Shown piece after piece: positions 8,206 to 30,125 of a stretch of 64,000 nucleotides of DNA (positions are counted from its first letter, which is position 1; every line of letters starts with the position of its first letter). Where the stretch lies: the NCBI GenBank assembly GCA_907165275.2, contig OU015662.1:1557501-1621500 (forward strand), given 5' to 3'. This DNA is from Zygaena filipendulae (taxonomy: Eukaryota > Arthropoda > Insecta > Lepidoptera > Zygaenidae). The position numbers were made by a program, and so were the translations under genes. The notes below the pieces were generated by a model. The model did no database searches. It had not been told where the DNA came from and saw only the letters and a program-made list of their open reading frames with translations.

Positions 8206-10620
8206 AATGGACATAGATAAGCAATAGCGTGTTAACCCACACTGGAGAAATATTAAGTAAATCGTGTTTAAAATTATAGCGCCATTTTGTGTCAACATTT
8301 TTTTATGTTCAACATTTTGTTACATATTTAAATAATGTGTAATAAGGTAACCACATAATTAAAAAACGTTCTCTAACTCTCAATAAATCGTTCTGTATCA
8401 ATAACTCTATTTCGTGGGTTAACATGCTATTGCTTATCTGCGTCCAAATAAGCATAGCTCTCTCACGTCGGTCAAGTTAACTTCGCCATAAGAGATCACA
8501 GCCCGATACCTAGAAGTCTAAAGTGAGGACACACACCGGAGTCTAACGTTTACAAGATGCAATTTTGACAGTATACTTTAATGTAGTATACTAATATTAA
8601 TGAGGACTTTTGGCTCATCGAAGTAACACTTGTAAAGGCGTCTCGAGACAACCGAATACTTTGGACGATAAAAGCGTGACGGAAATGAATAAGCCAGCGG
8701 TTTAGGCGGCAAAATCAAAACTACACAAAGTCAAAGAAGTTGCACTTTCACCCTAGCGTTTTTTTTTTATTGAGAATGGGCCACGCATAATACAAGATTC
8801 GCCAGATAATAACTTTGTCAAAATCTTCAACAAAACAAATTTAAGAACGCGCAAAATTAGCCACATTGACGTCAAAAATAGCCACATTTGAATAAAGGAT
8901 TTGACTTTGACTTATTATAAACGCTGACTTCGGTGTGTCTATCAGGAAACTCGTCACTTATGTGGGAAGAAATGCAAATAGAAGTCTATACGTAATAATA
9001 TTTAATTCAATAAATACCCTGGTATTGGGAGGACGACATCCCTATATTTTTATTTCTATTTTCCTTATTCACTTACAGCCTTCGTTCGTTTTTTTTTTTA
9101 ATGTTATTGTCCACACCTATACGCAAATTTAATTAACAATTTAGGGCCCTCGCTGTTACATACCTGTTACGATAAGAATAGCATTGTCATGGAAGTGGCA
9201 CGATAGCGAGCCGCAGGGAACCCAACACTATGACCTTTTGCACATTATAAGAAATATTCTTGTGTCTTATAAGAAATATCTGATAAGACACCCAGTCACT
9301 TTGGTTGTTATACGGGACCGTACATATTACAAGAAATGTCGATTAAGACACGCGCATAGTAATTTTTGTCGGATGCATGTAAGACACAAGAAAATTTCTT
9401 ATAACGTTCAAAAGGCCTGTGGGTTAGTTGACGTACTGTTCACTGCGGCCCGCTCTTGTACTATGTTTCTATCGTATAACGTGAAAACGGCTATAATATG
9501 ACAGTCTTATTCTGATCTTAACCACATTGCACAAAAACTCTATCTACTTCTGTGGATAAATAAAATAGGCAATCGAGGAGAAAATTTGACAAGTTCCAGT
9601 TTTCTAAACACTACTGGCAGAGAAACCACACCCTATACTGCCAAAATTTTCTTTGAATTTTTTTATTCTTTTACGAACAATATAACGTTACACAAATCGT
9701 AACGTGTACATATCGTTACAAAAGTTAGCATCCATCGCGCGCGATGGTCATAGCTCTGATTCGTCAGAGCCTATTTAAAATATCCCGAGGGCCCAATCCG
9801 TTGTAAACGCTAAGCCTTGTACGCACCAGGAGACACGTCTAGAGCCTAATATAATATCGCAACTTATCCACCTTTGTTTCGAAACCATGCCTTAAGATCG
9901 TACTCAGAGATTAGTTTTCATACGAATTTTAAACGTGTTCAATAGATATTTTCTTATAGACACGGTCTGCTTTTAATTACTTAAATAAATTAAACAATAC
10001 CACACGTTTTTCTTATATCGCCAATACCAAAGACTATGCAAAAAATTTAAATTATCAAAAAATTAATTCATTCATAAACTACTTATTTCATAAAATTTTA
10101 GTGCTCTCGAGATATAGGTAATTAAAAAAACAAAAAATAAAAAAGCTGCCGTAGTGCGTGAAAATATCTATTTATCTATTGAAATTCTCATAAAAACTAA
10201 CCCTGAAAGTAGATGCGTCTCGCGACATTGTCTCTGAGGTCTTTGAGGTCAGTAACGGCGAAAATCGACAGTCAATGGATACGGAAAAACTTGTATCGAT
10301 ACCCAGTTTTTGTGTCGAGACGTGAAGAGATTTCATGAGATCGTGTCTCGAGACAAATGTATCCTTAGTGCCGTAGAATGTTTAACCAAACGAGACGCCA
10401 CTCTGAAGAAAATACGAGAGCCATAAAAAAATTGTACCTTCTGAGATAGGTATTTCATTTAATAAAATATTATGTACTAATTTAAAATTAATAATAAAAA
10501 AATAGTAATTTTGATGATTATTCTGCAGCACGATACCAAAAATTCTAGACAAAAAGTGCACCAAAGAATTTCCGTGTCAGAAGTTATGGTATTTAACCTA
10601 TTTTACTTGATCTCCCATAG
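8206..10620. other. Intergenic DNA downstream of sotv
   Basis: Besides the foldback at 9185-9460 I see no gene; frames are short and compositionally random. Confidence 0.45.
9185..9460. repeat. Foldback element with about 75-bp imperfect arms
   Basis: The left arm (GAGCCGCAGGG, CCTTTTG, ATTATAAGAAATATTCTTG, TGTCTTA) is mirrored on the right by TAAGACACAAGAAAATTTC, TTATAA, CAAAAGG and CTGCGGCCCGCTC. A MITE-like hairpin without visible target duplication. Confidence 0.6.
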
Positions 10621-10630
10621 ATTTATTTTT
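10620..10630 (-). terminator. Possible sotv poly(A) signal
   Basis: TTTATT on the plus strand (AATAAA in sense) is the first canonical signal downstream of the sotv stop, about 350 nt away. Unproven. Confidence 0.3.
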
Positions 10631-10764
10631 AATTAACATCTTATATGATAAAATTTCTATAACAAGTGGTATATAAAACAACAATGCTTAGTTCGCCTCC
10701 TGTGAGGGCTTCGGTATGGACCTAAGCTGGCTGCGTTCGACTGGCTTCACAACGCAGCTGCACT

Positions 10765-10985
10765 GACCTCAGAGCGCGCCTTACTGACCTCAAACAGCGC
10801 TTCCACTGACCTCAAAGCACGCCTCACTGACCGCAAACAGCGCTTCCACTGACCTCACACGCTCGCTGACCTCACATCACGCCTCGCTGACCTCACATCA
10901 CGCCTCGCTGACCTCACATCACGCCTCGCTGACCTCACACCACGCCTCGCTGACCTCGCATCACGGCTCGCTGAGCTCACAGCGC
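10765..10985 (-). repeat. 21-bp minisatellite overlapping the sotv stop codon and 3' UTR
   Basis: Eleven units of about 21-22 bp, of the form GACCTCACATCACGCCTCGCT on the plus strand. The unit nearest the gene holds the TGA stop (10979-10977). On the sense strand most units begin TGAGGTCAGCGAGG, so in-frame back-up TGA codons follow at 42 nt and 63 nt. Nine units carry an exact AGGTCA hexamer. Confidence 0.9.
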
Positions 10986-11198
10986 CCCGATGTCCGGGTA
11001 CAGCAGCGGCGCGGCCGGCGGCTCCTCGCGGTACTGCAGCGGGTCCGCGCGGAACTCGACCGCCCGCAGCGCCATGTGCCCGTACACGGAGGCGAAGCGC
11101 TCGACGCAGGCGGAGCGCTGCACCATGTGCTGCGCGTCCGCGGACAGCATCTCGGTGTTGGTGCACTCGGAGCATTTGAACTTTTTGCGCGGCGTCAC
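10977..11198 (-). CDS. sotv: sotv last coding exon 7
   Basis: Acceptor CATTCGCAG. Encodes [17 protein letters not shown] and the C-terminal [16 protein letters not shown] stretch expected of EXT2, ending YPDIGAL. The TGA stop is itself part of the first unit of a 21-bp minisatellite that runs on into the 3' UTR. Confidence 0.92.
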
Positions 11199-14100
11199 CT
11201 GCGAATGGGCATGATGACAGGGTGTAAAAATCAAAATTATATTTTGTCCGTCAGTTAGATAGTAAGAAGTTTTTGCTTTTTAGAATTATTGAAAAATACC
11301 TAGATGAAACGCATTAAAGTTTAGGAGTAGGAGGTCGCGACGTCATAACTAACTATGATGTGTACCTAGGTGTGACGCCACACAGAATGTCAACTCAATG
11401 TATCTCCGTCATTTTTTAATAATTACGTAAATAAAGGAAAAATACGTGTCCAATATTTTTTTATCTACAAGATGGAATAAAAATTAAAATAAAACCATGT
11501 GTGTGAGGTGTGAAAATCTAAATTCTAGTTAAACTAGCGTCCCACACTTGAATAAAATCAATAGATATTTCATTTAACAAAAAATTTATAATCTTCACTC
11601 ACACTATTAAAGGGATATTATCAATACATGATCTCGCACATCTAAAACTGCTAATTAAGTAGTGGGGCGCGTCATTTTAGTTTAGACAAGCTATGCGCGA
11701 TTACATTGTTCGGTCTCAAATTCTATTCCATTCCACTCCACTCCACTCCACTCCACTCCACTCCATTCCATTCCATTCCGTTCCGTTCCGTTCCGTTCCA
11801 TTCCATTCCATTCCATTCCATTCCATTCCATTCCATTCCATTCCATTCCATTCCATTCCATTCCATTCCATTCCATTCCATTCCATTCCATTCCATTCCA
11901 TTCCATTCCATTCCATTCCATTCCATTCCATTCCATTCCATTCCATTCCATTCCATTCCATTCCATTCCATTCCATTCCATTCCATTCCATTCCATTCCA
12001 TTCCATTCCATTCCATTCCATTCCATTCTATTCTATTATATTCTATTGTATTCACGACAGCGGCGTTCCTATCACCTTGATAGGCGGCTTCCTGGTGTAG
12101 TTGGCGACGAGGAAGTTCATCGCAATGTCCTCGCAGTTGAAGGAGTCGTCGACGAGCCGCCGGATCTCGGCGGGCATCTTGTACGTGTAGTACCACGACC
12201 ACACTTTGTGGTGGAACGCGGCGCCGGTCAGCACCTGCAACAACAACAACAACAACAAATACAGCGATGATAGCTCAATGGTTGGTGCGTTCGGTTCAAA
12301 CGCCGCAAGGCGTAGGTTCAAAACCCTAACAATGAGCTTGAGCTGTCGGTGAAGGAAAACATCATGGGGAAACCATAGCAAGGTGGTAGGGCACTTTCCA
12401 GTAACCGGCTGGCTAACTACCACCTTCGAGTTGTAAATCTGTCGCCGAGCACCTAACGGTGTGTTCCGGCAGCCCCACTTGATAGCCAGTTCCCATCCCC
12501 ATTCCAGGTCGGCAACGCACCGCCATGCCTTCTGGTGTTGCAGACGTCCATGGGCGACGGTAATCACTTACCATCAGGTGTACAACTTGCCCGTTTGCCC
12601 CCTATGGCATAAAAAAAAACACATGTTGCTGTGCTGGTGGTGCCGGGGCACTGTACCCTACTCACCATGGAGATCTGGTGCTGGTGCTGGTGCTGGTGCT
12701 GGTGGTGCCCGGGCACTGTACCCTACTCACCATGGAGATCTGGTGCTGGTGCTGGTGCTGGTGGTGCCCGGGCACTGTACCCTACTCACCATGGAAATCT
12801 GGTGCTGGTGCTGGTGCTGGTGGTGCCGGGGCACTGTACCCTACTCACCATGGAGATCTGGTGCTGGTGCTGGTGCTGGTGGTGCCGGGGCACTGTACCC
12901 TACTCACCATGGAGATCTGGTGCTGGTGCTGGTGCTGGTGGTGCCGGGGCACTGTACCCTACTCACCATGGAGATCTGGTGCTGGTGCTGGTGCTGGTGG
13001 TGCCGGGGCACTGTACCCTACTCACCATGGAGATCTGGTGCTGGTGCTGGTGGTGCCGGGGCACTGTACCCTACTCACCATGGAGATCTGGTGCTGGTGC
13101 TGGTGCTGGTGGTACCGGGGCACTGTACCCTACTCACCATGGAGATCTCGTGCTAGTGCTGGTGCTGGTGGTGCCGGGGCACTGTACCCTACTCACCATG
13201 GAGATCTGGTGCTGGTGCTGGTGCTGGTGGTGCCGGGGCACTGTACCCTACTCACCATGGAGATCTGGTGCTGGTGCTGGTGTTGGTGGTGCCGGGGCAC
13301 TGTACCCTACTCACCATGGAGATCTGGTGCTGGTGCTGGTGCTGGTGGTGCCGGGGCACTGTACCCTACTCACCATGGAGATCTGGTGCTGGTGCTGGTG
13401 CTGGTGGTGCCGGGGAACTGTACCCTACTCACCATGGAGATCTGGTGCTGGTGCTGGTGGTGCCGGGGCACTGTACCCTACTCACCATGGAGATCTGGTG
13501 CTGGTGCTGGTGGTGCCGGGGCACTGTACCCTACTCACCATGGAGATCTGGTGCTGGTGCTGGTGCTGGTGGTGCCGGGGCACTGTACCCTACTCACCAT
13601 GGAGATCTGGTGCTGGTGCTGGTGGTGCCGGGGCACTGTACCCTACTCACCATGGAGATCTGGTGCTGGTGCTGGTGGTGCCGGGGCACTGTACCCTACT
13701 CACCATGGAGATCTGGTGCTGGTGCTGGTGGTGCCGGGGCACTGTACCCTACTCACCATGGAGATCTGGTGCTGGTGCTGGTGGTGCCGGGGCACTGTAC
13801 CCTACTCACCATGGAGATCTGGTGCTGGTGCTGGTGGTGCCGGGGCACTGTACCCTACTCACCATGGAGATCTGGTGCTGGTGCTGGTGGTGCCGGGGCA
13901 CTGTACCCTACTCACCATGGAGATCTGGTGCTGGTGCTGGTGGTGCCGGGGCACTGTACCCTACTCACCATGGAGATCTGGTGCTGGTGCTGGTGGTGCC
14001 GGGGCACTGTACCCTACTCACCATGGAGATCTGGTGCTGGTGCTGGTGGTGCCGGGGCACTGTACCCTACTCACCATGGAGATCTGGTGCTGGTGCTGGT

Positions 14101-17100
14101 GGTGCCGGGGCACTGTACCCTACTCACCATGGAGATCTGGTGCTGGTGCTGGTGGTGCCGGGGCACTGTACCCTACTCACCATGGAGATCTGGTGCTGGT
14201 GCTGGTGGTGCCGGGGCACTGTACCCTACTCACCATGGAGATCTGGTGCTGGTGCTGGTGGTGCCGGGGCACTGTACCCTACTCACCATGGAGATCTGGT
14301 GCTGGTGCTGGTGGTGCCGGGGCACTGTACCCTACTCACCATGGAGATCTGGTTGGTCCACTCGCTCTGGTAGCGCCAGGAGCGCGTGGCGTTGTCCCAC
14401 GCGTGCAGCCGCGACGGGAACCCCACCAGCCGCTCGGGGAACTCGCGCCACACGTCGAACCTGCCGCCACAACACATTGATAATAATAATAAGTTTATTG
14501 GTACTAAAAACAATCATCAAGAAAACAGTTTTGATTTACATTTCAACAAGTTCATGGCAAATGCTACATATAGATACCTCTGATGCTTATTTATTTTATT
14601 TTCATTATTTCAACATTAACAGGTATTTAACATTGATAGGACAATACACAATTACAGTTTGACATGCACTTAGACTAATTAAATACCCTTAAACAATGCT
14701 GATCTATAAGGCAAACTTATGGGACGTTGAGAGAGAGAAGATTAAAAGAGAAAAAATACAGGTTGAAGGTAGTTTACAATTTTGAAAGTGAAGAGCGGAA
14801 AGCGGTAAATGTGTGAAATAAATCTATATTAGATGAAGTTTTGGTACAATGTCATTATATAATTGGCACATACGAGTTACAGAGTTGTTGCGCTGCCTCA
14901 AGGTATCACAAGTTTGTTTTTATTTATTTATCTATTTATTTATTTACTAATTGTGCCCCGCGGTTTCACCCGCGGTAATTTCAAAGTTTCCGCGGGAATT
15001 CCAGGATAAAAAGTACCCAATGTCCTTTTCTGTACCCCTGACAACGTGCATGCCAAATTTCATCCAAATCCGTTCAGCCGTTTCTGCGTGATTGAGTACA
15101 TCCAAACATCCATACTTTCATTTTTACACTTTCACAATAAATAAATAAGCCGTTTTAGATAAAACCCCCACCCGAACTCCAACTCGTCGGGCGTCAGCAT
15201 GACGATGTCGTCGTCGATCGTCAGCTGGCACTCCGTCTCGATCTCGTCGTACGGGTAGAACCGATTCGACAGCTTGTTCTCCCTCGTCTGGATCACTTTC
15301 AACGGCTTGTTTATAACCGGCCATTCGGACGCTGTAAGTTAAAAAAAAAATCAAAATTAATTGCTGTTCGTTTGTCTCTGTTTTTTTTTTTTAAGTTTTA
15401 GGAGTGTATAAAAAATTGGGGGCGCTGAGAAATAATTGATTTTCAAATGGGCGCTAAAAGAAATAACTTTGAGAATCTCTGGTCTACAGGGCAGAACATT
15501 GTTGCCTAAATCATCAAACGATGACTTTTGATCGATATGATAAGTTTTAGCTGGCTGTGTCATGAAATGGTTGCATTTTATGTCATGGTCGGCCACATCA
15601 TGAAATTAATCAATGGGCATGTTGACTAATTTTTATTTTTTAGTTAGTCTTGTAGATTATTAAAAAATATTGGACACGTATTTTTTCTTTTTTTACGTAA
15701 TCAAAAAATAACGGCGATATATTGAGTTGAAATTTCGCGTGACGTTACGACAGTTTGTATCGCGGTTTTAGTGGTTAGTGACGTCACGACCCCCTCACCC
15801 TAAACTTTAATGCGCTTTATCTCTGCGTATTTTTATTTATTTGAAAAAGCAAAAAATACGTGTCTATTGTTTTTTTATTTTCTAACTGACGGACTAATTA
15901 GAATTTTGATTTTCAAAAGTAGTCCACATCCCCATTCTTAGATGTGACCGCGACATATAATATACTAGTTGTGGCCCGCGGTTTCAACCACGTTAATTTC
16001 AGAGTTCCCGCGGGAATTTCGGGATAAAAAGTTCCCTATGTGTTAATCTGATGTATAAGCTATATTATTGTAAAGTTTCATTTAAATCCAACCAGAAGTT
16101 TTTGCGTGAAAGAGTAACAAACATCCATCCATCCATCCATCCATACTCACAAACTTTCACGTTCATAATATTGGAAATATACATATGTATATATTAAATT
16201 ATTTACAATTGGAATAACAAACGTAACGTAAACGCAAGTATTCACGTATTCTCTAACAATCGGTTAATCGCTACGATATCCAATGTCTGTACTTAGCTAT
16301 TTATACCCAATTAAAATGCACGTTGGATTTTTAAGTGCCATTTGTAAAATACACCTCATTCGGCGAGTGTTTAGAGTCCAAAATAGCTTGTTACACATAG
16401 AATTGCGTGATCGCTTATACGACGCGGCGGCGTTGGAAAAAAAACACGTGTTAAATGGAAGAGACTTTTTATTTATGAAAAAAAAAATTGATTTCTTCGG
16501 TATTTTGCTTGTTGACTTATCGGGCTACTGTTTGCCGAGCGGGTTTGTTCGTGGTTTTGTACAATAGGCTTGTATCCGGGGTATGAAAATCAAAATTATA
16601 TTTAGTCCGTCTTGTAGGTTAATAAAAATAATAGACCCGTATTATTTTTTTATCAAATTATTGAAAAAATACACTCGAGAGCAATGAATCCGGGTCACTT
16701 AAAGAATCCTAAAAATCTCGGAAACTAAAAATGCTAGGTTAATGCAATAAATCGTATTTAATAGACAATGTAATACTCCTTAAATGAAGGTATTAAAACT
16801 TCTTAGTTATTGTAAAGTTATATCATAAAAAAATCAAACTTGAAAAAGGGCCACTTTCGAAGATGGAGCTACGAAATTACAGCATTTGGTTTTGCTTTTG
16901 TTTGTAATCTGTCATTTATGTGGGTACATAAACCATGTTGATAGTGCTCTATATTCATTATTCAAGCTGAAATTATGTCGCTTACGCCTGAAGAATGCAC
17001 CAGAATACTTACAATGCTGGAAACCGGCCGGAGTCAGCGCGATACAGCCAGGACTGTCGGTGTGTCGCTGTCAACAGTACAAAGAGTTCTCCGACGTTAC

Positions 17101-20100
17101 GAAGAAACTGGTTCTAACCTACGCAGACCAGGAACGGGCAGAATTAGGTGTACCACAGCACGAGAAGACCGATACTTGGTGAACACCATGCTTCGAAATC
17201 GCTTTCTCACAGGAACTGAACTCACAAATCAGTTTCGACGCCTCGGAGGAAGTAACCCAAGTGCATGGACAGTAAGACGTCGGCTTGCTGAATCTAACTT
17301 AAAACCCCTTAGACCTGCAAACGGCCCTAAACTGGAGCGTGCGCATCGTATTTCAAGACTAAGATATGCCCAGATCCACGTAAATTGGAGTATTGAAGAT
17401 TGGTCAAAAGTTATGTTCTCCGACGAATCAAAATTTATGCTCTACAAGCACGATGGAAGACACAGAGTGTATCGAAGACCAGGGGAAAGATTCAAGCAAG
17501 CATGCATCGAAGAAAAAGTAGCCTACGGTGGTGGGTCTGTACTTGTGTGGGCCGGAATTTCTTCTGAAAGTCGCACAGAGCTGGTGATCATAGAAAACGG
17601 CTCTTTAACTAGCGTAAGATATGTGGAAGAAATCCTCAATGATCACGTTGGTCCATTTATGGTCAATTTAGGTGAGGATGCTATATTTATGCATGACAAT
17701 GCCCGACCTCATACAGGTAGGATTGTGAATGACTACCTTCAAGAGATGAACATTACTCGTATGGAGTGGCCAGCGCGCAGCCCGGATATCAACCCGATCG
17801 AGCATGCTTGGGACGAGCTAGGCAGATGCGTAAAACAACGAAACCCTCCCCCAATCACGCTTCGTGAGCTCAAAATTGCTCTCACAGAGGAATGGGAGAA
17901 TATTCCCCAAAATCGTATAAGGAACTTGGTGTACAGCATGCCAAACCGCGTAAACGCAGTAATGGAAGCACGAGGAGGCAATACGAAGTATTAAAATTCA
18001 AGAAAATCGTAATAAAGTTCAAAAATTTCATGTTTCCTATTTTTGTTTTAAGGAGAGATCAGCAGTTTTTTTCTTTATGTAATTTTGTGTTAATAAAATG
18101 TATGGTGACTCATATTTTTTTTACTTTCATTTAAGGAGTATTACATTGTCTATTAAATACAATTTATTGCATTAACCTATCATTTTTAGTTTCCGAGATT
18201 TTTAACATTCTTTAAGTGACCCGGATTCATTGCTCTCGAGTGTACTAAGATAAAACGCAGTAGTAAAGTTTAGGAGTGGGGGCTCTTGACGTCATAACGT
18301 GCCATAAACTGTATCACGGCGTGACGTCACGCGATATTTCAACTAAATATATCTCCGTTATTTTTTGATCACGTAAAAAAATACGTTGGATGATACCTAC
18401 TAGCAAATAATAGAGAACACTAGTGTGTGTTTCAATGCAAAAAAATCTATATTAACAGGTACGCCTATAATATATTTGTTATCAGTCGATTTTTTAAAAT
18501 TCATTTGATAATCACTAAAAATAAAAATCATGCCAAATCTATTTAGCACGTTACTTATTTTTATCACACTTTTCAAGGTTTCTTCGGAATCAGGTTTTAA
18601 TTAGTTTTCAATCATACTGTATCAGATAATGTGACTTAATACGTAGGTAAGGTACATATATTAAATTCTAAGACTTGGATTTTTGTGATAATAAATCAAA
18701 CAGATAACATTATTATGTGTGTTATGGTAATACATTTTTCATTTTTATCATTTCCAGGGTCGTCGTATGACACATGTTTACATTCTGTTAATGTAAAATC
18801 GAAAGTATTTTATATACAACGTGTTAATGAATTAACTGAAAACCTGATACACCCTATTTAAAAAAATAAACAATAATATGGTTAAAATATATTTTATGTC
18901 GAAAAAATTTATACTTTAAAAGTTATTCAACATTAGTTTGAAGGTGGCCTTTCTACGAAATTCCAAGCACTACGCCTGCGCCTACCATTTCGTTTTTTTT
19001 TGCTGCGGGCGGCGTACGCGCCAAATATTGTATTATAAATAATTTAGACATGGGCTGATAAAAATGAAAAAATATAACCTATATTAAAACATAGTGCGAT
19101 CGATTCGATGCTCGATTCTGAGCAAACTACTTTCTAGTTTTCAATTAATTCATTAACACGTATACGAATTTTAATGGCGTATCATAGTGAATCAGGGCCT
19201 AGGGTACCTACCTGTGAGATTATTTATACTAAATTGTAATAGTTTATACTTTATAGATCGATATCGCAAAGTTTTAAATAAAAACAAGAACCAGGGAAAT
19301 ATAAATAGAAACGTTGAACCGAGTTTTTAACCGACTTCAAAAAGAAAGAGGTTGTGGGTGTGTTCGGGCGTAACATTTGTTCGAAAGGGGTTTATTCCGA
19401 CATGGTCCTATTTAAATTTCATATAGATCTCATAATAAGTTTCGAAGACAGACAACGGAACTCTTGAAGTCGGTTTAATTATTTTTGTTAAAATTTTGCT
19501 TATTTTAACTCGGTTAATACCTACTAAACCTGAATACACAGACATAGACATATCTTTATTCGGCATCACAGAAATAATTAAAATTCAAAAAATATGTAAC
19601 AAAATATAGTACGAAAACTCTTAAGAGTAAATCTGCATAACAATTGAACGAAGGTCAGACATATTTATACCGACCGACAAGAGTTAAAGTTCAAAGCAAT
19701 GGGGAACATTCTGTTTAATAGGAATGTTATTTTGGTCCTAACTAGGAAATGGAACGATTTATTTTGGTCACAATTGTATTATGCATAAAATTTGGAAGGA
19801 CGAAACACATATTTTGAAATTTACATAATTACATGAATAAAATTGGCTACTTGACAAATTTTTTTTTTAGTCCGTCGCGTCGTGTAGATTAGTAAAAAAT
19901 ATTGGACAAGTATTTTTTTTCTTTTTTTACGTACTTAATCAAAAAATGATGGCGATACATTGAGTTGAAATTTCGCGTGACGTCACAACCCGGTGTCGTT
20001 TGTACGGGGCTTATACTGAAAAATGACGTCACGTGTCCCCCACCCTAAACTTTAATGCGCTTTATCTATGTTTATTTTCATTAATTTGAAAAAACAAAAA

Positions 20101-23100
20101 ATACGTGTCTATTGTTTTTTTTATTTTATAACTGACGAACTATAATTAGAATTTTGATTTTCATACCCTGGAGAATACCCAATTTTTAAAGAATGGGCTT
20201 GTCAACTAAATTTTAGTTTTTAGTCCGTCTAAAAAATATTAAAAATATTAAACACGTATTTTTCTCATTTTTTGGGTAGGTACCTAATCCAAAAATAACG
20301 AAGATGCATTAAGAGTTTAAGACGTAGGTATTCTTACTTAATGATAGCATTTTTTTTAAATAATTCGACTAGCAAAGCCAACCTAAAGAAAAAGCACGCG
20401 TGTTTAATAAGCTGCATTATGAAACTAAAAGTCGTGCAACAGAAACCATTTAATTTCGCTCGTATATCAAGTGAGTTGAAAAAAAAACTTAATCTTATAA
20501 AGGCGAATGTGAGTTTGTTTATGTGTTACGCTTTCACGCGTTAACTACTCAACCGATCATAGTGATTGCAAAATAAAACACTATGTCAGGGATACAGCAA
20601 AGGACACATGGTACTTTTCATCCCACAAATAATTGGCTACTTGGCTAATTATTTTTTAGTCCGTCGCGCGTCGTGTAGATTAGTAAAAAATATTGGACAC
20701 ATATTTTTTTCTTTTTTTACGTAATCAAAAAATAACGGCGATACATTGAGTTGAAATTTTGCGTGACGTCACAACCCGGTGCAGTTTGTACGGGGCTTAT
20801 TCTGAATAATGACGTCACGAGTCCTCCACCCTAAACTTTAATGCGTTTTATCTATGTTTGTTTTCATTAATTTGAAAAAACAAAAAATAAGTGTACTGCT
20901 TGACTAAATAGAATTTTGATTTTCATGAAATTTCCCATATACACTGTTGGAGACTGTCTCTCCCTGGAGAGAGGGTACTTTTTGCTGGCAAACCCGCTGG
21001 AACTCCGAAATTAACGCGGGCGAAACCGCGGGGAGCAGCTAATCATAGAATACTACTAGTATAATACATAAGTCCATTAATTAATAAGTTAAAAAAAGAA
21101 AATGAGTTTATCGGTCCCCATCAAAAGGAAACTTACAAAAAATATTATACTAATTTAACAAATAATGTGAAGGAGAACGGAAGGTGTGCGGTGTGGGGCT
21201 TGGGGACCAAATGGGTTGGTACCACAGCTACAGAGCAAATAAATTAATAGAGAGTGCATGTAGGCGGGGCAGACGCGCTACCGTTGCAAAGGGAGTTAGA
21301 GCAAATGCTCCAACTTGCCCAAAACTTCTTTTGCTACCATCCCAAGTATATTTACCACAATAGTCCCAAAACTGTAAATTTTGAAAACAGTGACTATGTG
21401 AAAACATAACCATGAAGCGTTTAATACATTTCTTTGCGTTAATGAATGTTTTTGTGCGTGATGAATAGTTTTGTGCGCGAAAATCACTCGGCGACACTGG
21501 CTTTCATCTGTTTTCATATGGTTTTCATACTAAACTAAGTTGACGTCCCTTTTTTTTCTTTTTTGTATGGGAACAATTTTATTTTCGAAGTTGCGTTTTC
21601 TATCTGTTATTTTCTGTTGTGCGGTTGGTACTCACGGGGCGGCGGCGGCTTCCTCTGGTTGTTCCACACGACCAGCACCTTGGCGAGGCTGGGCACGCGC
21701 GCCAGGTTCCTGACGAGCGTGAACAGGCTGTCGACGCGGTCGTACGTGAGCACCACGGCCGTGAAGCCGGGCGCCTTGGGCGCGGTCACCGGCAGGAACA
21801 GCGGGCTCACCGGCCCGTACTGCGCGCAACATAGCCGGTCAGGGTACGGTCGCCGACTTATTATTTATACTACTAGCTGTTACCCGCGGTCTTACCAGCG
21901 GAAATTCCAGACCTCCTGCGGGAATTCCGGGATAGAAAGTACCCTATGCCTTTCCCTGTACCTCTGATAACGTGTATACAAAATTTCATGATGATCGGTT
22001 GAGCCGTTAAGGCGTGAAAGCGTAACAGACAGACAGACAGACAGAGTTACTTTCGCATTTTCGCTTACTAAGTGAAAAAAATTTCAAAATCGGTTTGTAA
22101 ATCCAGAGATTACCCCTACAATCTCAGAATCTCACAAGCTTTACCTCTTTATAATATTAGTATAGATAAACATCAGTTTCTTTAAAAAAATCTGAATATT
22201 ATATTTTTAATTTTGCTTGATCATTTCATGCTCATTATTTCTACAAAATCCATGTTTCACCTCTGCCAGACGACCCGCGACGCGCGACTTCTCATGTTTT
22301 TTTTTTAATATAAATAATATACTGAATAGTGCATTTTAGATTCAGAACCACAAACGGTAGTAATTAATTAAGTAAAGTTTGTTTTCACAAACACTACTCC
22401 GTTTTTTTGAGCACGCACGAATCTAATGACCTTTTCATTTTACTAATTACAACATCACACGAACAGTAGTTATTTTTGCAATTCACAGAATTTATATGGT
22501 GATTCAATCAAGTATGACGATCACTCTATGCCGTTTATAGCTATGGAGTATGTTTGTTTTTGCCTTTCGCGAAACTAGGTATACCCCGCGGTTTTACCCG
22601 CGATAATTTCAGAGTTCCCGCGGCAATTTAAATTTTTAAGCCCGTCTTGCAGATTAATAAAAAATGTGGGACACGTATTTTTTCATTTTTTACGTAAACA
22701 AAAAATAACGGAGATACATACCTACATTAAGTTGAAATGTCGCGAGCCCCCACTTCTAAACTTCAATGCGTTTTATCTTAGTATTTTTTCAATAATTTGA
22801 AAAAGCAATAAATACGGGTCTGTTATTTTTTATTAATCTACAAGACGGACTAAATAGAATTTTGATTTTCATACTCCGGAAACAAGCCTATTCCAGGACA
22901 AACTATAGATACGTATAAACCTTTCTCTTCCTCCATTTTCATACAAAAGCTGACTAAAATATCTATACTATAATAAAAGAGTAGAATCCGCGATTCTGTA
23001 CATTGAATATTTTAACCTAAAATTGAGAGGGGTGATAAAAGACGAGTAACCAACCCAAAAAAAGTATTTAACATTATTTTCGGTCTGTCTGTCTGTTCGC

Positions 23101-26100
23101 GATAATCTCCGCATCTACTGAACGGGTTGTCATGCAGTTTTCAGTAGTAGATTAAGCTAAGTCTGGAGCAACATATAGGCTTTGTTTCATCGAAATAGGA
23201 CATAGGAGAAAAAAGTTATCATCAGTTAAAGACTTAAGCGCAATGCAATGGTCGAAAACTTCGATATAATATTGCATAACGAACATGATAAAACCTTTTT
23301 AATACAGTTGCTCAAAAAGTGGCGTATTGCAGGGACGTTTAGCGTTCGGGATGTGGGCTATTACATACTCGAGCTTGTTGTTTACCTTTCCCGAACTCGT
23401 GCGTTCTCTTTGCCAACTGTCAAAAATGGCGACACGACTTTGACACACTTTTTGCATTGCGAAACGTAGGTTTCGCATTACTAATACGACTAGCGCCATC
23501 TCTTGATCACAGTTGGAACTTAGTTGAGTTTGTTGTGTTTTTGATATTTTATTAAATTGCTTAATTTTTTCGTAAAAAAAATTGCTGCGCCTCGGCTCGG
23601 GTAGACATTTGTCGGAACTCTTTGCAATGACAGGCTTTCCGCACTTATAATGAAATATACTATTTTAGAAATTATGCATTTTCTTTCTTTTGAACTGATT
23701 TTTCGCGAAGTGACAGTTTTAAGGCTTGGAGAGACAAATGATGTGATTATATTATTTTCTTTGAAACCAAAGAGTATATAACCACTAAGTTTTCAAAGCG
23801 TGAGAAACTCTAACGTAATTACTGTCATTGCAAGGGTCGAAAATTCACGCGGGTGAAACCGCGGGCACCAGCTAGTTATAAATATAAATAATATACCTTA
23901 ATATAACTTCTTATAATATAACCCAAAAATTTCAGATCGCTTTACAATAGGGTAATTTCCGTGGTGTGAAAATCAAAATTCTATTTAGTACCATGGACCA
24001 ATTAAACTAGATTTAATTAAAAATGTTAGTACGAACTGTAATAGATAGCTAATAAAAAATAATAGACACGTATTTTTTGGTTTTTCAAATTATAAAAAAT
24101 ACAAAAAAAGCATTAAAGTTTAGGACTGCGGGGGGGGGGGGGGGGCTTTTGACGTCATAACGTGCATTAAACAGTAGCACAGCGTGACGTCACGCGACAT
24201 TTCGACTTATAGCGTCTCCGTTATTTTTTCATTAGGTAAAATATTAAAAAATACGTGTCCATTATTTTTTATTAATCTACAAGACGGACTAAAACTAAAA
24301 TTTGGTTGACAAGCCCATTACAACGGAATCGTGGTACGCTTGGTTTCATGTCTTATCTCGCTTGCTCTAATCTGTCTCTGATTGGAGTGGTACAATTAAG
24401 CCCGCACCACTTCGGCCGTTCGACCGTTCAATTATTTCTATACATACTAGCTTTTCCCCGCGGTGACGCCCGCCCGAATACTGGATCCCCTCGGGAACGC
24501 CTCACGTAGGCAAAATGTATGAACTATCTCGTCTCGTCTCGACTACAATTAGGTGTAATTTTAAACGAGGGACTTTGCTCAAACCCTCGTTAATTTATGC
24601 CTGACATGTGAATAATCCTTACTATTATAAATGCAAATGTGAGTTTGTTTGTTACGCTTTCACGCCTTAACTACTCAACTGATCATTATCAAATTTTGCA
24701 TACTCGTTGGCAAGGATACAGGGAAGACGTAGGGCACTTGTTGTCCTGAGATTCCCGAGGGAACTCCGAAATTAACGCGGGGAACAGCTAGTAAACGATA
24801 AATAAAAACCACTCACCAAATGTTCAGGCATATTCCATTCCTCGTACATCCTGGCCGCCAACGGGAAAACCCGCTCGTTGATGATCTCTAAAGCGGTCAG
24901 CGTGATCCTCTCTATACTCCCGAAGTACTTGTCGTACGCCCATCTTGTCTGCCAGTACAACTCCGCTCGCCGCTCTTTGCTCGTCGAATGCACAATCCTG
25001 AGGAGATTACCCAAATTCTCCTCCGGTATAAACATGGCGAGCTGGTGCCAGTCGACGTGCGAACTGAACGGCATCACCACAGAATCGGCGACGATGATGG
25101 GAATGCACTGCGACGCTAACGCATCCATTAGCACCGCTTGCATCAACCTAGCGCTGCGCACCACCAGACAGAAAACGGCTTCCTTCAGCACCTCTGGATA
25201 GCTCATGACTCTATCGGTTTTGTATTCGCATCGCCGGTCGTGATCGGTCGTGCCGCTTTTCGTCTGACATCTTTCGAACAACAGCAGATCGTTGGACGAC
25301 GACGCTATGCTCTGCAGTACGGCCAGATAGTCCGTCGGTATGTTGGTCTGGGTGGATATGATAAGATAGTTTTTCTCCTTGGGTTGGGTGCTGTCGACGC
25401 GCTCGGCCGTCCGGCTCGGGACCGGTATGGACACGTCGAACCCGTATCTGAACGTCCACGTATCGAAACCGGCGCCGGCTATGATCGCTTTACCAGTGTT
25501 GAGATCCACGACCGTGTTATAATTCGGTGCCGAACCGGGTATAAAGTTGAATATGATATGATTCTCGCCATCGTTCCAACTGTTGAAAAAGCAAAAATTA
25601 ATAATAATAACGTATCTACTGTAAATTAATGTTACGTACTTTTTTACGCTGTACCTAGATTCACAGTTATAGTTATACAAAATATATCCTAACAATATTA
25701 ATGTAATAATGGTGTTGATCGATGAAAACGCAAAATAAAACCAATGGTACGAAAAATGGACTGAATAAGTAAAATTCGTACTTATGCATACAACAAGTAT
25801 CATAAGTAGTAGTTGCAAATCTGTCGCCAAGCACCTAACGGTGTGTTCCGGCAGCCCCACTTGAAAGCCAGTTCGCATCCCCATTCCAGGTTGGCAACGC
25901 ATCTGCATCTTCTGGTGTTGCAGATGTCTATGGGCGGCGGTAATCACTAACCATCAGGTGTACCACTTGCCCGTTTGCCTCCTATGACATAAAAAAAACA
26001 CAACACTCACACGCCAAACTGAATTAAGTAATCAAAAAACTTGTAAATTTCTAATTTTTCATAATATTTTGTATGGACATTTTTATGTCTCTGTGTAAAT

Positions 26101-28248
26101 TGGGTATTTAGTTTATACTAGTTGTGCCCCGTGGTTTCATCTGCGTTAATTTCAGAGTCCCGCGGGAATTCCGGGATAAAAATTATCCTATGTGTTAATC
26201 TGATATATAAGCTATATTATTGTAAAGTTTCATTTAAATCCATCCAGTAGTTTTTGCGTGAAAGGGGGTAACATCCATCCATCCATCCATCCATACATAC
26301 TTACAAACTTTCGCATTTATAATATTAGTAGGATTAACCAAAGGTAACTAGATTTAAAGTGACTAACATTTTTTGTAGTATGTATTTCTCTTCAAGTATA
26401 GTGTAAGCCAGGCCATTTTCTTAAATAAACATAATTATAACATATAATAATATTATAATGTTCACCAGAATTGAATTATTACGTATATTGCTTGCAATAA
26501 TGCTTTCCCATAACAAATAATGCTTGGATATTATCAGACATCACCCTGTGATCCGAAACTATGTAGAGCTTGTGTGTATTATGAGTAGCAGACAAATGAT
26601 ATAAATTATAATAGTTATATACACAGTACATGACATGTAGCATAGCAATGAAGTTTATTTGCCACTACAGCAATGGAACAGTCAATATACATTTATTCCT
26701 TAAAAATTGAACCCTGGACCTTTTGGTTTAAAAATCATTATGATGACCACTTGCACTAATTCAGTAGCCAATTTATTTTGATGATAAATAATCTAACAAT
26801 CTATATTTTATCACACAAATTTTTGCTATTCTATAATCAATTCTGCTCATTTTAATTAATTGTGAAAAGCACAATTTTCTAATTTACTGCAAATAATAAA
26901 ATTAAGCAACATTATGTTACTAGCTATTGCTTACGGTTTCACCCACACAAATTTAAAAATTCCCCCAAAAAATTAATGTATTGACATAAAAATTCTATTT
27001 ACAGCTCTCTATCACATTAAGGTTGCCTTGAAAAGATGGCCTCTGGCGAAAAGGCCGCCTTTTACTCTGTATTTACTTTATATCTGTCTTAGTTTTTATT
27101 TTCTCTTCTAGGGCAATAAAGCATATTTGATTTGATTTGATTAACAAATGCAATTTAAACAGGAACCGTTTTTTAGGCATGACACATACATAGTTTAGAA
27201 ACCAATCCCAAAAATCAATGTAGATAAAAAATGAAATGAAAATTATTTATTTATACATATATAAAATAGTCAAATACTTGCAAATTGGATAATAGTAACT
27301 TTGAATATTAATTGGTTTAGCCTTGATCCTTGTCTTACCAAAAACTTATCAGTTTACTGTATGTTTTATGTACTGACTAGATGTCCCCTGCAATTTCACT
27401 TGTGGTAATTTCAAAGTTCCCACAGGAATTCCAGGATAAAATATAGTTATAAACCTTCCTCATGAATCACTCTATCTATTGGTGAAAACCGCATCAAAAT
27501 CCGTTGCGTAGTTTTAGAGATTTAAGCATACATAGGGATATAGGGGCAGAGAAAGCGATTTTGTTTTATACTATGTAGTGATAATAATGTAATCAACCAA
27601 TATTTGAAACAGAGTTTACTCAGTACTTCAAGAGAAAGGTGTTAATCAAATTAATTCTACTCCTACCTGTGTGTTATGATAATGAAAGAAAAATATTTGC
27701 ACATGTACTTACTGTGGAAGAGATCGCAATGCTTGTGCCACATGTTTGCTTGAGAAACTGTATTGATTCAACAAATCCAAACTAGGCACCAACAAGCAAG
27801 CTTCCTCCGGATCAGATGTGTAATATTTACTATGTTTTATTGCATTTAATATCTCATAAAACTCCTTAGAAAAATGAGCGATAGGACTCCCATCTTCAGT
27901 CAGGAAGTCAGTCAGTGGGTATATGTATATGGTCAACTTATCGTGTCCACCTCTACCACACTTATAAACGTTGAAGCAGTCCCAAAATGTGCAGTTCGCA
28001 TCGCGAGGCAACGATTGGGACGCATCACTCGATAACTTCGTAATACTAGCACTCCTCCTGTCCAAGATCACTGGTTTATGGCGGTCTGTCCGACGCGTAC
28101 TCACGGCAAAAACATTAAAATACACTGTCAACACTAACGATATCAATATAAACAACAGCAGACCGACGAAAAATCTATAGTAATAAAAGATTTTATGGTA
28201 AGATATCTTCGAATGCTTGCTCTTTTTTATAAGCGAATCCGCAGCCAT
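10977..28248 (-). CDS. sotv: Exostosin-2 homolog (EXT2 / sister of tout-velu), complete seven-exon gene
   Basis: Joined coding exons (minus): 28248-27713, 25579-24817, 21819-21636, 15331-15172, 14460-14340, 12234-12076, 11198-10977; 2145 nt, 714 codons plus TGA, close to the roughly 718 aa of animal EXT2. Every intron is GT-AG and all phases fit. The protein has a short basic cytosolic tail, one membrane anchor (residues about 26-49, type II Golgi topology), an exostosin/GT47 domain (about 100-390, starting after the Cys-rich [13 protein letters not shown] stretch at 86-98) and a C-terminal GT64 domain (about 455-690) with the DDD metal/UDP-sugar motif at 534-536. By family knowledge EXT2 pairs with EXT1/ttv to polymerise heparan sulfate. 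EXT2 rather than EXT1 is chosen from the N-terminal Cys cluster, the overall length and the KPPIKV-type end. The start is the first ATG ahead of the anchor. Introns 3-6 are loaded with repeats. Confidence 0.93.
11219..11496. mobile_element. TAGTCCGTC-family MITE in sotv intron 6
   Basis: One of a family of about 300-bp elements with imperfect inverted ends (GGGTATGAAAATCAAAATT...TTAGTCCGTC / GACGGACTAAAACTAAAATT) and a conserved interior (GTGACGTCAC, CTAAACTTTAATGCG). This copy is diverged. Confidence 0.6.
11721..12050. repeat. (ATTCC/GGAAT)n pentanucleotide array in sotv intron 6
   Basis: About 66 pentamers: a CTCCA run, a short TTCCG run, then about 50 perfect TTCCA units and a TTCTA tail. 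On the sotv sense strand it reads GGAAT, beginning about 25 nt after the exon 6 donor. Confidence 0.97.
12076..12234 (-). CDS. sotv: sotv coding exon 6
   Basis: Starts [10 protein letters not shown] after a TTGTTG...CAG acceptor, contains the conserved [11 protein letters not shown] segment of GT64, and ends TRKPPIK before the weak donor GTGATA. 53 codons, phase 0 on both sides. A pentanucleotide satellite array starts about 25 nt into the next intron. Confidence 0.92.
12262..12620 (+). mobile_element. tRNA-derived SINE in sotv intron 5
   Basis: The head has a box A-like TAGCTCAATGG (12271) and box B GGTTCAAAACC (12315); the body ends GGTAATCACTTACCATCAGG and ATAAAAAAAAA. A CAA microsatellite joins it to the exon 6 acceptor. 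It is in antisense orientation to sotv. A 5'-truncated relative lies in intron 1. Confidence 0.75.
12631..14353. repeat. Splice-donor minisatellite, 31 copies, filling sotv intron 5
   Basis: A tandem array with period 53 or 59 bp (one step of 65), differing by the number of GCTGGT hexamers. Each unit holds CCTACTCACCATGGAGATCT, which on the minus strand is the sotv exon 5 end plus donor (AGATCTCCATG|GTGAGTAGGG). Counting the motif gives 31 copies, of which the one at 14340 is the genuine exon boundary. Units between 12667 and 13434 are mostly 59 bp; from 13434 to the exon they are almost all 53 bp and nearly identical. Long open frames through the array are a consequence of its composition. 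Confidence 0.97.
14340..14460 (-). CDS. sotv: sotv coding exon 5 (source of the minisatellite unit)
   Basis: Encodes [23 protein letters not shown] and then EWTNQISM. The 121-nt length is not a multiple of three, so skipping would shift the frame. The donor is ATG|GTGAGT; the last 14 exonic bases and about 39 intronic bases are the template of the tandem array that follows. The acceptor GGCGGCAG has a poor pyrimidine tract because a LINE tail sits just upstream. Confidence 0.92.
14472..14670 (-). mobile_element. LINE 3' end abutting the sotv exon 5 acceptor
   Basis: On the minus strand the sequence ends in AATAAACTTATTATTATTAT, a poly(A) signal followed by a TTA-type tail, the usual end of a non-LTR retrotransposon. 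It is in sense with sotv and stops about 12 bp before the exon 5 acceptor AG. The 5' limit is uncertain. Confidence 0.55.
14947..15140 (-). mobile_element. Helitron (Lep1-like) in sotv intron 4
   Basis: CCCCGCGGTTTCACCCGCGG at the 3' end, CTGACAACGTGCATGCC inside; the 5' end is eroded. It ends about 30 bp from the exon 4 donor. Confidence 0.7.
15172..15331 (-). CDS. sotv: sotv coding exon 4 (DDD motif)
   Basis: Acceptor after a long T tract (TTAACTTACAG), donor GTGGGG. Encodes [12 protein letters not shown] and the catalytic-site IDDDIVM of GT64. It joins exon 5 through a split Gly codon. Confidence 0.92.
15393..15481 (-). mobile_element. hAT element left-end fragment
   Basis: The reverse complement begins CAGAGATTCTCAAAGTTATT and runs on through TTTTTTATACACTCC like the 453-bp hAT copy. 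The right end is absent. Confidence 0.75.
15612..15920. mobile_element. TAGTCCGTC-family MITE in sotv intron 3
   Basis: Shows ATTGGACACGTATTTTTT, ACGGCGATATATTGAGTTG, GTGACGTCACGACC, ACTTTAATGCGCTTTATC and the terminal TAGAATTTTGATTTTC shared by the family. Confidence 0.7.
15965..16175 (-). mobile_element. Helitron (Lep1-like) in sotv intron 3
   Basis: CTAG then TTGTGGCCCGCGGTTTCA; ATCC microsatellite and ATAATATTGGA at the 5' side. Confidence 0.8.
16672..18242 (+). mobile_element. Complete Tc1-type DNA transposon (1571 bp)
   Basis: Inverted repeats of about 117 bp (16672-16788 and 18126-18242) match at all but a few positions and begin CACTCGAGAGCAATGAATCC. The target TA is duplicated at 16670-16671 and 18243-18244. 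It holds one intact transposase gene. It lies in sotv intron 3, in antisense. Confidence 0.95.
16975..17994 (+). CDS. Tc1-like transposase, DD34E, apparently intact
   Basis: A single 339-codon frame, a normal length for Tc1 transposases. An N-terminal helix-turn-helix (about residues 5-50, with [14 protein letters not shown]) precedes a second DNA-binding helix set and the DDE domain: first Asp in VMFSDESKF, second in FMHDNARPH, Glu in [12 protein letters not shown], with 34 residues between the last two, the Tc1 spacing. No stop or frameshift. It would cut and paste its own element at TA sites. The start is the first Met downstream of the left inverted repeat. Confidence 0.93.
   Translation: MSLTPEECTRILTMLETGRSQRDTARTVGVSLSTVQRVLRRYEETGSNLRRPGTGRIRCTTAREDRYLVNTMLRNRFLTGTELTNQFRRLGGSNPSAWTVRRRLAESNLKPLRPANGPKLERAHRISRLRYAQIHVNWSIEDWSKVMFSDESKFMLYKHDGRHRVYRRPGERFKQACIEEKVAYGGGSVLVWAGISSESRTELVIIENGSLTSVRYVEEILNDHVGPFMVNLGEDAIFMHDNARPHTGRIVNDYLQEMNITRMEWPARSPDINPIEHAWDELGRCVKQRNPPPITLRELKIALTEEWENIPQNRIRNLVYSMPNRVNAVMEARGGNTKY
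18816..19165. mobile_element. Foldback/MITE with CGTGTTAATGAATTAACTG ends
   Basis: Inverted terminal repeats of about 24 bp, CGTGTTAATGAATTAACTGA and its complement on the right. Interior has CGCGTACGCCGCCCGCAGC (complement strand). A longer copy is at 61385. Confidence 0.8.
19329..19475. mobile_element. Small MITE with AACCGACTTC ends
   Basis: AACCGACTTCAAAAAG on the left and CTTGAAGTCGGTT on the right, 147 bp. A single end of the same kind (GGAAGTCGGTT) is at about 41464-41474. Confidence 0.65.
19842..20172. mobile_element. TAGTCCGTC-family MITE (sotv intron 3)
   Basis: A nearly full copy: TAGTCCGTCGCGTC, TTTCGCGTGACGTCACAACC, CCCTAAACTTTAATGCG, and a terminal TTTTGATTTTCATACCC. A partial copy follows at 20192-20330. 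Confidence 0.75.
20192..20330. mobile_element. Partial TAGTCCGTC-family MITE
   Basis: Starts AATGGGCTTGTCAACTAA, then TAGTCCGTC and a run matching the left half of the family. The right half is missing. Confidence 0.6.
20633..20928. mobile_element. TAGTCCGTC-family MITE
   Basis: Near-duplicate of the copy at 19842 (shared GGCTACTTG, TAGTCCGTCGCG, CAACCCGGTG). Helitron-like pieces lie on both sides (20487-20630 and 20935-21043), so it may have landed in one. Confidence 0.75.
20935..21043 (+). mobile_element. Helitron (Lep1-like) 3' fragment
   Basis: AACTCCGAAATTAACGCGGG, GCGAAACCGCGG then CAGCTAA before T. A matching 5' fragment (CTTATAAAGGCGAATGTGAG) is at 20487-20630. Confidence 0.6.
21235..21540. 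repeat. Interspersed repeat, GGCGGGGCAG family, copy 1
   Basis: Shares CATGTAGGCGGGGCAG, ACCGTTGCAAAGGGAGTTAG, AACTTGCCCAAAA, GTGCGTGATGAATAGTT and GGCGACACTGG with 58540-58790, same orientation. Class unknown. Confidence 0.65.
21636..21819 (-). CDS. sotv: sotv coding exon 3
   Basis: Acceptor TTGCGCGCAG, donor GTGAGT. Starts YGPVSPLF and contains the start of the GT64 domain ([19 protein letters not shown]). It is GC-rich compared with its surroundings, as are exons 4-7. Ends with one base of codon 495. Confidence 0.92.
21872..22168 (-). mobile_element. Helitron (Lep1-like) with GACA microsatellite
   Basis: CTAGCTGTTACCCGCGG, GGGAATTCCGGGATAGAAAG, five GACA units and ATAATATTAGTATAGA. Starts about 50 bp upstream (in transcription sense) of sotv exon 3. 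Confidence 0.8.
22566..22626 (-). mobile_element. Helitron 3'-end fragment
   Basis: CTAGGTATACCCCGCGGTTTTACCCGCG, broken off by a MITE. Confidence 0.6.
22624..22890. mobile_element. TAGTCCGTC-family MITE interrupting a Helitron end
   Basis: Begins in the middle of a Helitron 3' end (22566-22625) and ends ACGGACTAAATAGAATTTTG followed by ATTTTCATACTCC. Confidence 0.65.
22963..23876 (+). mobile_element. Helitron-like copy split by another element
   Basis: The 5' part (TCTATACTATAATAAAAGAG, GTCTGTCTGTCTG) is at 22963-23240, and the 3' hairpin with ACCAGCTAG at 23838-23876; the AATACAGTTGC element lies between. Confidence 0.5.
23297..23670. mobile_element. Second copy of the AATACAGTTGC element, internally deleted
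   Basis: Nearly identical to the first copy, but about 90 bp covering the right inverted end and the first hairpin arm are missing. It sits between two Helitron-like pieces in sotv intron 2. Confidence 0.7.
23957..24318. mobile_element. TAGTCCGTC-family MITE with a 16-G run
   Basis: Ends GTGTGAAAATCAAAATTC and ACGGACTAAAACTAAAATTT then GGTTGACAAGCCC. A G16 homopolymer at 24130-24145 replaces the usual GTGGGGG stretch. Confidence 0.7.
24616..24791 (+). mobile_element. Helitron (Lep1-like) next to the sotv exon 2 donor
   Basis: CCTTACTATTATAAATGC at the start; GAACTCCGAAATTAACGCGG and CAGCTAG at the end. A fragment in the opposite orientation is at 24450-24500. Confidence 0.75.
24817..25579 (-). 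CDS. sotv: sotv coding exon 2
   Basis: Acceptor TTTTTCAACAG, donor GTGAGT; 763 nt with no stop. It carries most of the exostosin domain, including [17 protein letters not shown] and the conserved CIPIIVAD segment. It ends in phase 0 after MPEHL. A Helitron ends about 25 bp beyond the donor. Confidence 0.93.
25811..25997 (+). mobile_element. 5'-truncated SINE copy in sotv intron 1
   Basis: Closely matches the 3' body of the intron 5 SINE: AAATCTGTCGCC, CCGGCAGCCCCACTTG, the GGTAATCACT tail and terminal A run. The tRNA-like head is missing. Confidence 0.75.
26118..26333 (-). mobile_element. Helitron (Lep1-like), full-length, sotv intron 1
   Basis: CTAGTTGTGCCCCGTGG to ATAATATTAGTAGGA, with ATCC repeats. 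Confidence 0.8.
26995..27142 (+). mobile_element. LINE 3' end (RTE-like tail)
   Basis: Contains GGTTGCCTTGAAAAGATGGC, AAAAGGCCGCC and ends CAATAAAGCATATTTGATTT(GATTT)n. In Lepidoptera this block ends RTE-type LINEs. Lies in sotv intron 1. Confidence 0.6.
27377..27590 (-). mobile_element. Helitron, ACTATGTAGTGAT subfamily, sotv intron 1
   Basis: CTAGATGTCCCCTGCAATTTC at the 3' end; ATCAAAATCCGTTGCGTAG and TATACTATGTAGTGAT inside, as in the copy at 39083. Confidence 0.65.
27713..28248 (-). CDS. sotv: sotv coding exon 1
   Basis: Encodes the start codon, cytosolic tail, transmembrane anchor and the first part of the exostosin domain (LTIYIYPL onward). It ends in CTTCCACA before the donor GTAAGT and leaves two bases of codon 179 (CA), completed by T from exon 2 to give His. 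Confidence 0.92.
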
Positions 28249-28560
28249 TTGTGGTTTCGTCGGTTAAATTAATCCTTTTGATCTGCATATGGCATCCATA
28301 ATTAGATAAACATAACAACTGCTTTTCATTCAATAAATCACAAAATTGTAAAAACACTTGAAATTCACAAGACGAAACTGGGCAATCCCAATACTTTTGG
28401 ATCTGAGGCCAGCAGCGTCTGGCTGACGGCTGTCTGTCTCTTTGACATTTGTGACAAATCATCTGTGTCTCGCAAACTGTCATAAGATACGTTTCAAGTC
28501 ACGTAACAAGTGTATCGTGCGGTTCGTGCCTCATTATCATAAACCTCTACATAAATTAGC
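28249..28560 (-). promoter_or_regulatory. Presumed sotv 5' UTR / promoter region
   Basis: Single-copy-looking sequence just upstream of the sotv ATG, bounded by a palindromic MITE at about 28575. I see no convincing TATA box; the assignment is by position only. Confidence 0.35.
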
Positions 28561-28574
28561 TTTTACGGCTGGTT

Positions 28575-28772
28575 TAGTGATTACTTAAAGATTCTTAAAG
28601 CAAAACTGCCGCACTCAGACTCGTTTATCAAATTAATATTAATTGACATTTAACTGTATTCAAAGCCAATTGACATTAATTTAATGAATGTCTCTGAGTG
28701 CGGCCGTTTTGTTTTTAAAAGCTTTACTTAAAAGTAACTAATCATTAAAACGTCACTGAGTACGGTCATTAA
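28575..28772. mobile_element. Third, diverged copy of the palindromic MITE
   Basis: Shows AACTGCCGCACTCAGACTCG, the inner AATTGACATT repeats and GTCTCTGAGTGCGGCCG, in the 5' flank of sotv. It ends near GTACGGTCA then TTA. Confidence 0.7.
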
Positions 28773-29935: not shown

Positions 29936-30125
29936 GACGACCCGATTGACGCAGAGGTCACCATGCCTACCTGCTAATCAAGGGGTTCCGGGTTCGATTC
30001 CCGATGGGGGTGGCCTTTGTGTGATGAACACAGGGTTCCATTTTCCAGTCTGGGTGTGTTTATATATCTATAGTATAATATATAAGTAATTCTATGTAGT
30101 ATATACCACGTTTGCTTGTAGTACG
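29936..30125 (+). mobile_element. tRNA-derived SINE
   Basis: Box A-like TTGACGCAGAGG and box B GGTTCGATTCC (29991), then ATGAACACAGGGTTCC and CAGTCTGGGTGTG. No anticodon arm or acceptor pairing fits a functional tRNA gene. Confidence 0.7.

Follow-up and report, generated by a model that had tools for sequence, protein, structure and literature searches.

How can a conserved gene work when the splice donor of one of its exons is followed by 30 copies of itself? The question is raised by the sotv/EXT2 gene of the moth Zygaena filipendulae, which we analyzed in a window of 64,000 nucleotides (nt) of contig OU015662.1 (assembly GCA_907165275.2, positions 1,557,501 to 1,621,500; all coordinates below count from the first letter of this window). 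Coding exon 5 of sotv runs directly into a minisatellite whose repeat unit is the exon 5/intron 5 junction itself, donor included. Our analysis suggests that this array expanded locally and is mostly tolerated by splicing, with a low-level leak into unproductive transcripts, rather than acting as a switch.

The gene was modeled by homology (Table 1), and its identity was assigned on domain order and on near full-length alignment to EXT2. A domain search of the sotv protein returned GT47 and GT64 in the order found in EXT2 (PF03016, 8.1e-49; PF09258, 5.1e-85), and residues 66-714 align to human Exostosin-2 (PDB 7scj, E 9.9e-222). Among the matches listed, exostosin-2 of Galleria mellonella ranks first (87% over residues 440-714), followed by proteins from other moths and butterflies; our homologue counts refer to the 120 proteins listed out of 1145 matches, none of them known to be from Z. 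filipendulae, and the list favors proteins that keep the exon 6 region. The human alignment passes the exon 5/6 junction without a break (sewtnqism/vltgaaf, the slash marking the junction), and we therefore place the true exon 5 donor at plus-strand coordinate 14339. The same junction (...ISM/VLTGAAF..., searched as one pattern) is uninterrupted in 113 of these 120 homologues; two of the other seven have it with a nearby variant residue and five are without the string VLTGAA. This unbroken protein alignment indicates that the first donor of the array is the functional one. An earlier note, made from the letters alone, had named the gene sotv/EXT2 and, counting coding exons, numbered the exon correctly, as the domains, the gene model and the human alignment agree.

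Table 1. Position of sotv/EXT2, its donor array and the associated sites in the window (a slash marks the exon/intron boundary; aa, amino acids; bp, base pairs).
Feature	Position	Strand	Basis or remark
sotv/EXT2 coding gene	10977..28248	-	7 coding exons, GT-AG sites, 714 aa; model by homology
sotv coding exon 5, 121 nt	14340..14460	-	gene model and translation; protein aligns through to human EXT2
Seed of the repeat unit, final 14 nt of exon 5	14340-14353	-	gene model
True exon 5 donor, ATG/GTGAGTAGGG	14330..14339	-	computed U1 duplex energy -10.8 kcal/mol
Minisatellite, 31 copies of 53/59/65 bp	12627..14353	-	Tandem Repeats Finder and direct donor count
30 decoy donors, each equal to the true donor over 10 nt	12656..14286	-	direct count and translation
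Rest of intron 5, array to exon 6	12235..12626	-	includes interspersed repeat 12429-12623
GGTGCTG across the exon 6 acceptor (one base of intron 5, then six of exon 6)	12229..12235	-	antisense to array CAGCACC
sotv coding exon 6, 159 nt, phase 0 at both ends	12076..12234	-	gene model
sotv coding exon 7 (last)	10977..11198	-	gene model

The array, its reading frames and stops, and the gene model can be shown from the sequence. Tandem Repeats Finder reports a period of 53, 31.0 copies and 93% matches (score 2663). Each unit consists of the last 14 bases of exon 5 followed, from the donor onward, by at least 39 intron bases, and 14 + 39 gives the period of 53, confirming the composition proposed earlier. 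The exact sequence GTGAGTAGGG occurs 31 times on the minus strand, from plus-strand coordinate 14339 (the true donor) down to 12665, which bears out the claim of a roughly 30-fold tandem repetition of the donor: 30 decoys follow the true site, and all 31 are identical over 10 nt. The donor-to-donor spacings are 53 (17 times), 59 (12 times) and 65 (once); the range of 53-59 nt given by the earlier note thus covers 29 of the 30 and misses the one of 65, whereas its statement that unit lengths are not multiples of three holds throughout, each spacing being 2 modulo 3. The intron part of every unit ends in ACCAGC hexamers, and the length variants (53, 59 and 65) exist because the number of these hexamers varies. 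The 14-base exon segment is exact in all but two of the 31 copies, numbers 23 and 29, each of which has a single change that spares the last three bases. Chance is not in question for the array donors given the density of GTGAGT, which on the minus strand of the window reaches 18 per kilobase (kb) inside the array versus 0.24 per kb outside it (46 occurrences in total, 15 of them outside). We use the term donor-embedding array, in our own wording, for at least 10 tandem units of 10-100 bp that start at an exon's functional donor; the sotv array begins in the end of exon 5, and the donors of 31/31 units match the true one over GTGAGTAGGG. The possibility that the units serve as exons or recursive splice sites was rejected by inspection, without a computed score: CAG is present with no pyrimidine tract, and ATG/GTGAGT is not an AG/GT ratchet point.

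Translation of the gene model predicts that all 30 decoys lead to a premature stop, with products of 606-607 aa versus 714. With donor 2 in use, the frame ends at a TGA where exon 6 begins (607 aa), while use of donors 3-31, or retention of the intron, meets a TGA (TGG TGA) inside the second donor (606 aa). The frameshifted or truncated EXT2 anticipated by the earlier note is therefore predicted for every decoy; the TGA in the second donor, to which it attributed the truncation, accounts for donors 3-31, and for donor 2 the stop falls one codon later, in exon 6. For the four donors computed (2, 3, 4, and 31), between 152 and 1776 nt separate the premature stop from the exon 6/7 junction downstream. 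Since every decoy yields an early stop, full-length EXT2 can be obtained from none of them.

A comparable architecture has been described. The earlier note knew of no such system, which proved wrong: the variable number tandem repeat (VNTR) of human ABCA7 is built in the same way, and the minisatellite of IFI6 (6-16), taken up below, is an older case. The ABCA7 repeat lies in intron 18, starts at the exon 18 donor and has 25-bp units, 23.7 of them in the reference genome (PMC5954066). Like the sotv array, it extends in tandem from the donor of a conserved exon, the ABCA7 unit opening with the donor GT, and its unit length is not a multiple of three, so that one retained unit frameshifts the transcript, which in ABCA7 is subject to nonsense-mediated decay (PMC5954066). 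About 2% of transcripts are spliced to the next VNTR donor and keep one such unit, a share that does not depend on VNTR length; with increasing length, however, exon 19 skipping goes up and expression goes down (PMC5954066). The two arrays differ in that the 25-bp ABCA7 unit is without exon bases whereas the sotv unit of 53-65 bp includes 14, and in that length variation with effects on skipping and expression has been shown in ABCA7 whereas the sotv array is known from one assembly.

With these observations in hand, we infer that the sotv array is a locally expanded boundary minisatellite that is mostly splice-tolerated, with a low-level leak, and not a switch (probability about 0.68). The donor joined to the exon body would be used nearly always, exon definition favoring the donor nearest the exon 5 acceptor, and the array copies would leave with intron 5. 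A few per cent of transcripts may take the next donor and, after a frameshift and early stop, would be destroyed or give truncated EXT2. With an early stop predicted from each of the 30 decoys, a conserved gene could hardly function without dominance of the first donor, and such dominance with a small nonsense leak is what the ABCA7 next-donor share, about 2% whatever the VNTR length, leads us to expect. The earlier note had offered two readings, an exon-proximal donor that always wins and a length-variable switch on heparan sulfate polymerase output; by the ABCA7 analogy the first, amended to nearly always, is the better supported. The true donor is also the sole donor next to the exon 5 body, and position, unlike predicted accessibility, singles it out. 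The 30 decoys offer a natural experiment on how the spliceosome chooses among identical donors that differ mainly in their distance from the exon.

Several points weigh against a tolerated array. The decoys are indistinguishable from the true donor by sequence. Predicted accessibility is equivocal: under one setting the openness of donor 1 is about three times that of donors 2-13 but is exceeded by that of donors 28-31, and under a second setting all 31 values are near zero and donor 15 lies above donor 1. The identity of all 31 donors could moreover be taken as selection; set against this, the 30 units carry only about eight substitutions, too few for a test of selection on the donor within the array, and by hand arithmetic there is roughly a one-in-five chance that none of them falls within the 10 donor bases. 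Finally, longer ABCA7 arrays go along with reduced expression and with more frequent skipping of the exon that follows, and a similar effect is possible in sotv; because the expression result weighs against neutrality, our confidence is held down to the value given above. Structural shielding of the decoys was considered separately as a candidate mechanism and dropped, the predicted local accessibility of the 31 donors giving no consistent advantage to the true one.

The ABCA7 precedent also leads to the rival that survives best, although we regard it as unlikely: length-dependent skipping of exon 6, perhaps through masking of its acceptor, with CAGCACC in the units pairing with GGUGCUG at the acceptor so that a longer array would give more in-frame EXT2 without part of GT64. 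Skipping of exon 6 would keep the frame open, removing 53 aa (VLTGAAF...PPIK, part of GT64) and leaving 661 aa; exon 19 skipping in ABCA7 increases with VNTR length (PMC5954066), and TERT repeats are proposed to act by RNA:RNA pairing (PMC3948165). The array contains CAGCACC 41 times, and GGTGCTG occurs 3 times on the minus strand of 10900-28300, once at the exon 6 acceptor. In a pairing-energy test, this acceptor was alone among the six sotv acceptors in the tail of the controls, its observed energy being reached by 7/200 unit shuffles and 25/200 target shuffles (90 to 188 and 75 to 190 of 200, respectively, for the other five). However, 7/200 is not significant after correction for six acceptors, and 25/200 is not significant at all. 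A scan of the end of intron 5 and exon 6 likewise placed the best-pairing stretch not at the acceptor (-38.3 kcal/mol, from 12251) but farther upstream, within intron 5 and next to its interspersed repeat (-42.4 kcal/mol, from 12426); ten shuffled units gave a mean best value of -34.3 and a minimum of -39.9 kcal/mol, so that the acceptor stretch falls inside the shuffled range, as did pairing with the array unit in the other four of the five regions scanned. The exon 6 motif NCEDIAMN, exact or in a close form, is moreover present in 119 of the 120 listed homologues, a list that favors such proteins; the exception (P0022) is 710 aa long. A stronger version would make the array an antisense brake that acts on the exon 6 acceptor and is tuned by length: array length would set the share of EXT2 without the 53 GT64 residues, and hence heparan sulfate output, and exon 5 would stay spliced at any length thanks to the identical donors. 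This version strikes us as highly improbable. If the ABCA7 pattern did hold in the moth, the effect of a donor array on the next exon would be general and not a human curiosity.

We also doubt that the decoys leak in proportion to their number, drawing U1 and splicing into the array so that the frameshifted fraction grows with array length and the dose of EXT2 falls. The sequence gives them the means, as all 31 donors are identical, the decoys share the bases of the true donor, and among the six donors of the gene the true one forms the strongest computed duplex with the U1 5' tail (lowest energy, -10.8 kcal/mol, versus -6.7 to -10.3 for the other five); every decoy product would moreover be nonsense. 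The ABCA7 next-donor share argues otherwise, since it stays constant at about 2% across VNTR lengths (PMC5954066). Least credible is an assembly artefact in copy number, the assembled array being inflated from a few real copies or collapsed from many. Assemblers can go wrong over a stretch such as the fourteen identical 53-bp units, but copies 15-30 differ in their substitutions and lengths without regular order, a pattern that an artefact would hardly invent.

The order of the units suggests how the array arose. Read from the exon outward it is AAAAAAAAAAAAAABAACBDBEFABBBBGH, units 1-14 being identical and substitutions and longer units appearing from 15 on; none of 100,000 shuffles of the unit order produced a run as long as these 14 exon-proximal units. 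Identical proximal units and variant distal ones are as expected of recent local expansion with the last growth at the exon end. Short homology between the exon end ACCAACCAG and the intron sequence ACCACCAGC was available for a first duplication. From unit order and microhomology we infer a boundary-seeded minisatellite: a short duplication spanning the exon 5/intron 5 junction, probably aided by ACCAG-like microhomology, would have started the array, and unequal exchange or replication slippage would then have enlarged it, latest next to the exon.

Other repeats occur in sotv. The stop codon is overlapped by a 21-bp tandem array (about 10.6 copies, 10761-10983) that runs into the 3' untranslated region, so that the gene has two arrays seeded at coding boundaries. 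Intron 6 contains about 64 copies of ATTCC (11720-12037), which place (UGGAA)n in the pre-mRNA starting 38 nt past the exon 6 donor; we take this pentamer to be the same as in the expansions of spinocerebellar ataxia type 31 (SCA31) and in human satellite III. Both arrays lie within 2 kb of the donor array, so the end of sotv is repeat-prone in general, which favors the reading of a tolerated local expansion.

Beyond ABCA7, the older case is human IFI6 (6-16, G1P3), whose unit is reportedly about 12 nt with alternatives that stay in frame, whereas every sotv alternative is nonsense. Two downstream IFI6 repeat units serve as donors and give three mRNAs (PMC4526556), and the title of Turri, Cuin and Porter (1995) names a minisatellite that gives multiple donors. 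The 38-bp VNTR6-1 of TERT intron 6 is, like the sotv array, an intronic minisatellite in a conserved enzyme gene, and it alters splicing of downstream exons; unlike the sotv array, its distance from exon junctions exceeds 1 kb and it is not known to be a donor array, RNA pairing or a G-quadruplex being proposed as its mode of action (PMC3948165, PMC11830802). Tandem duplication of AGGT, a route of intron gain exemplified by a 24-bp multiple duplication in fission yeast, resembles sotv in its head-to-tail copies of splice sites, with splicing across several copies; there, however, the copied segments are exonic, provide GT as well as AG, and create new introns, whereas sotv copies an existing donor and no acceptor (PMC4974935). 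Among the matches listed in literature searches of open-licence papers (20 of 30 and 15 of 59 in two of the searches), no insect minisatellite that embeds a donor appeared. Judged by its sequence, the sotv array is a striking case of the ABCA7/IFI6 type of repeat, which is rare but has been described before.

Elsewhere in the window, no Rfam family reached its gathering score, and no tRNA was found in 10000-30000 in a search with bacterial settings. The interspersed repeat of intron 5 (12429-12623) has a counterpart in sotv intron 1 (25811-26002) that is 91% alike over 195 bp (blastn within the window); by eye, both resemble a short interspersed element (SINE), in which an A-run and a sequence like a tRNA B box can be made out. 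Tc1-like transposases with HTH_Tnp_Tc3_2 and DDE_3 are represented by two long open frames, one at 16945-17994 (+), in sotv intron 3 and antisense to the gene, and one at 54558-55595 (-). At 35030-36415 (-) lies an exon of a homologue of sine oculis-binding protein (SOBP, E 1.1e-54). Of the open frames at 48582-48992, 51467-51877, and 52137-52541, two are near-identical (FFQNGGKKHGRR...NGGQPPGVVKIQNGG...) and the third has a common middle, and they are apparently copies of one repeat.
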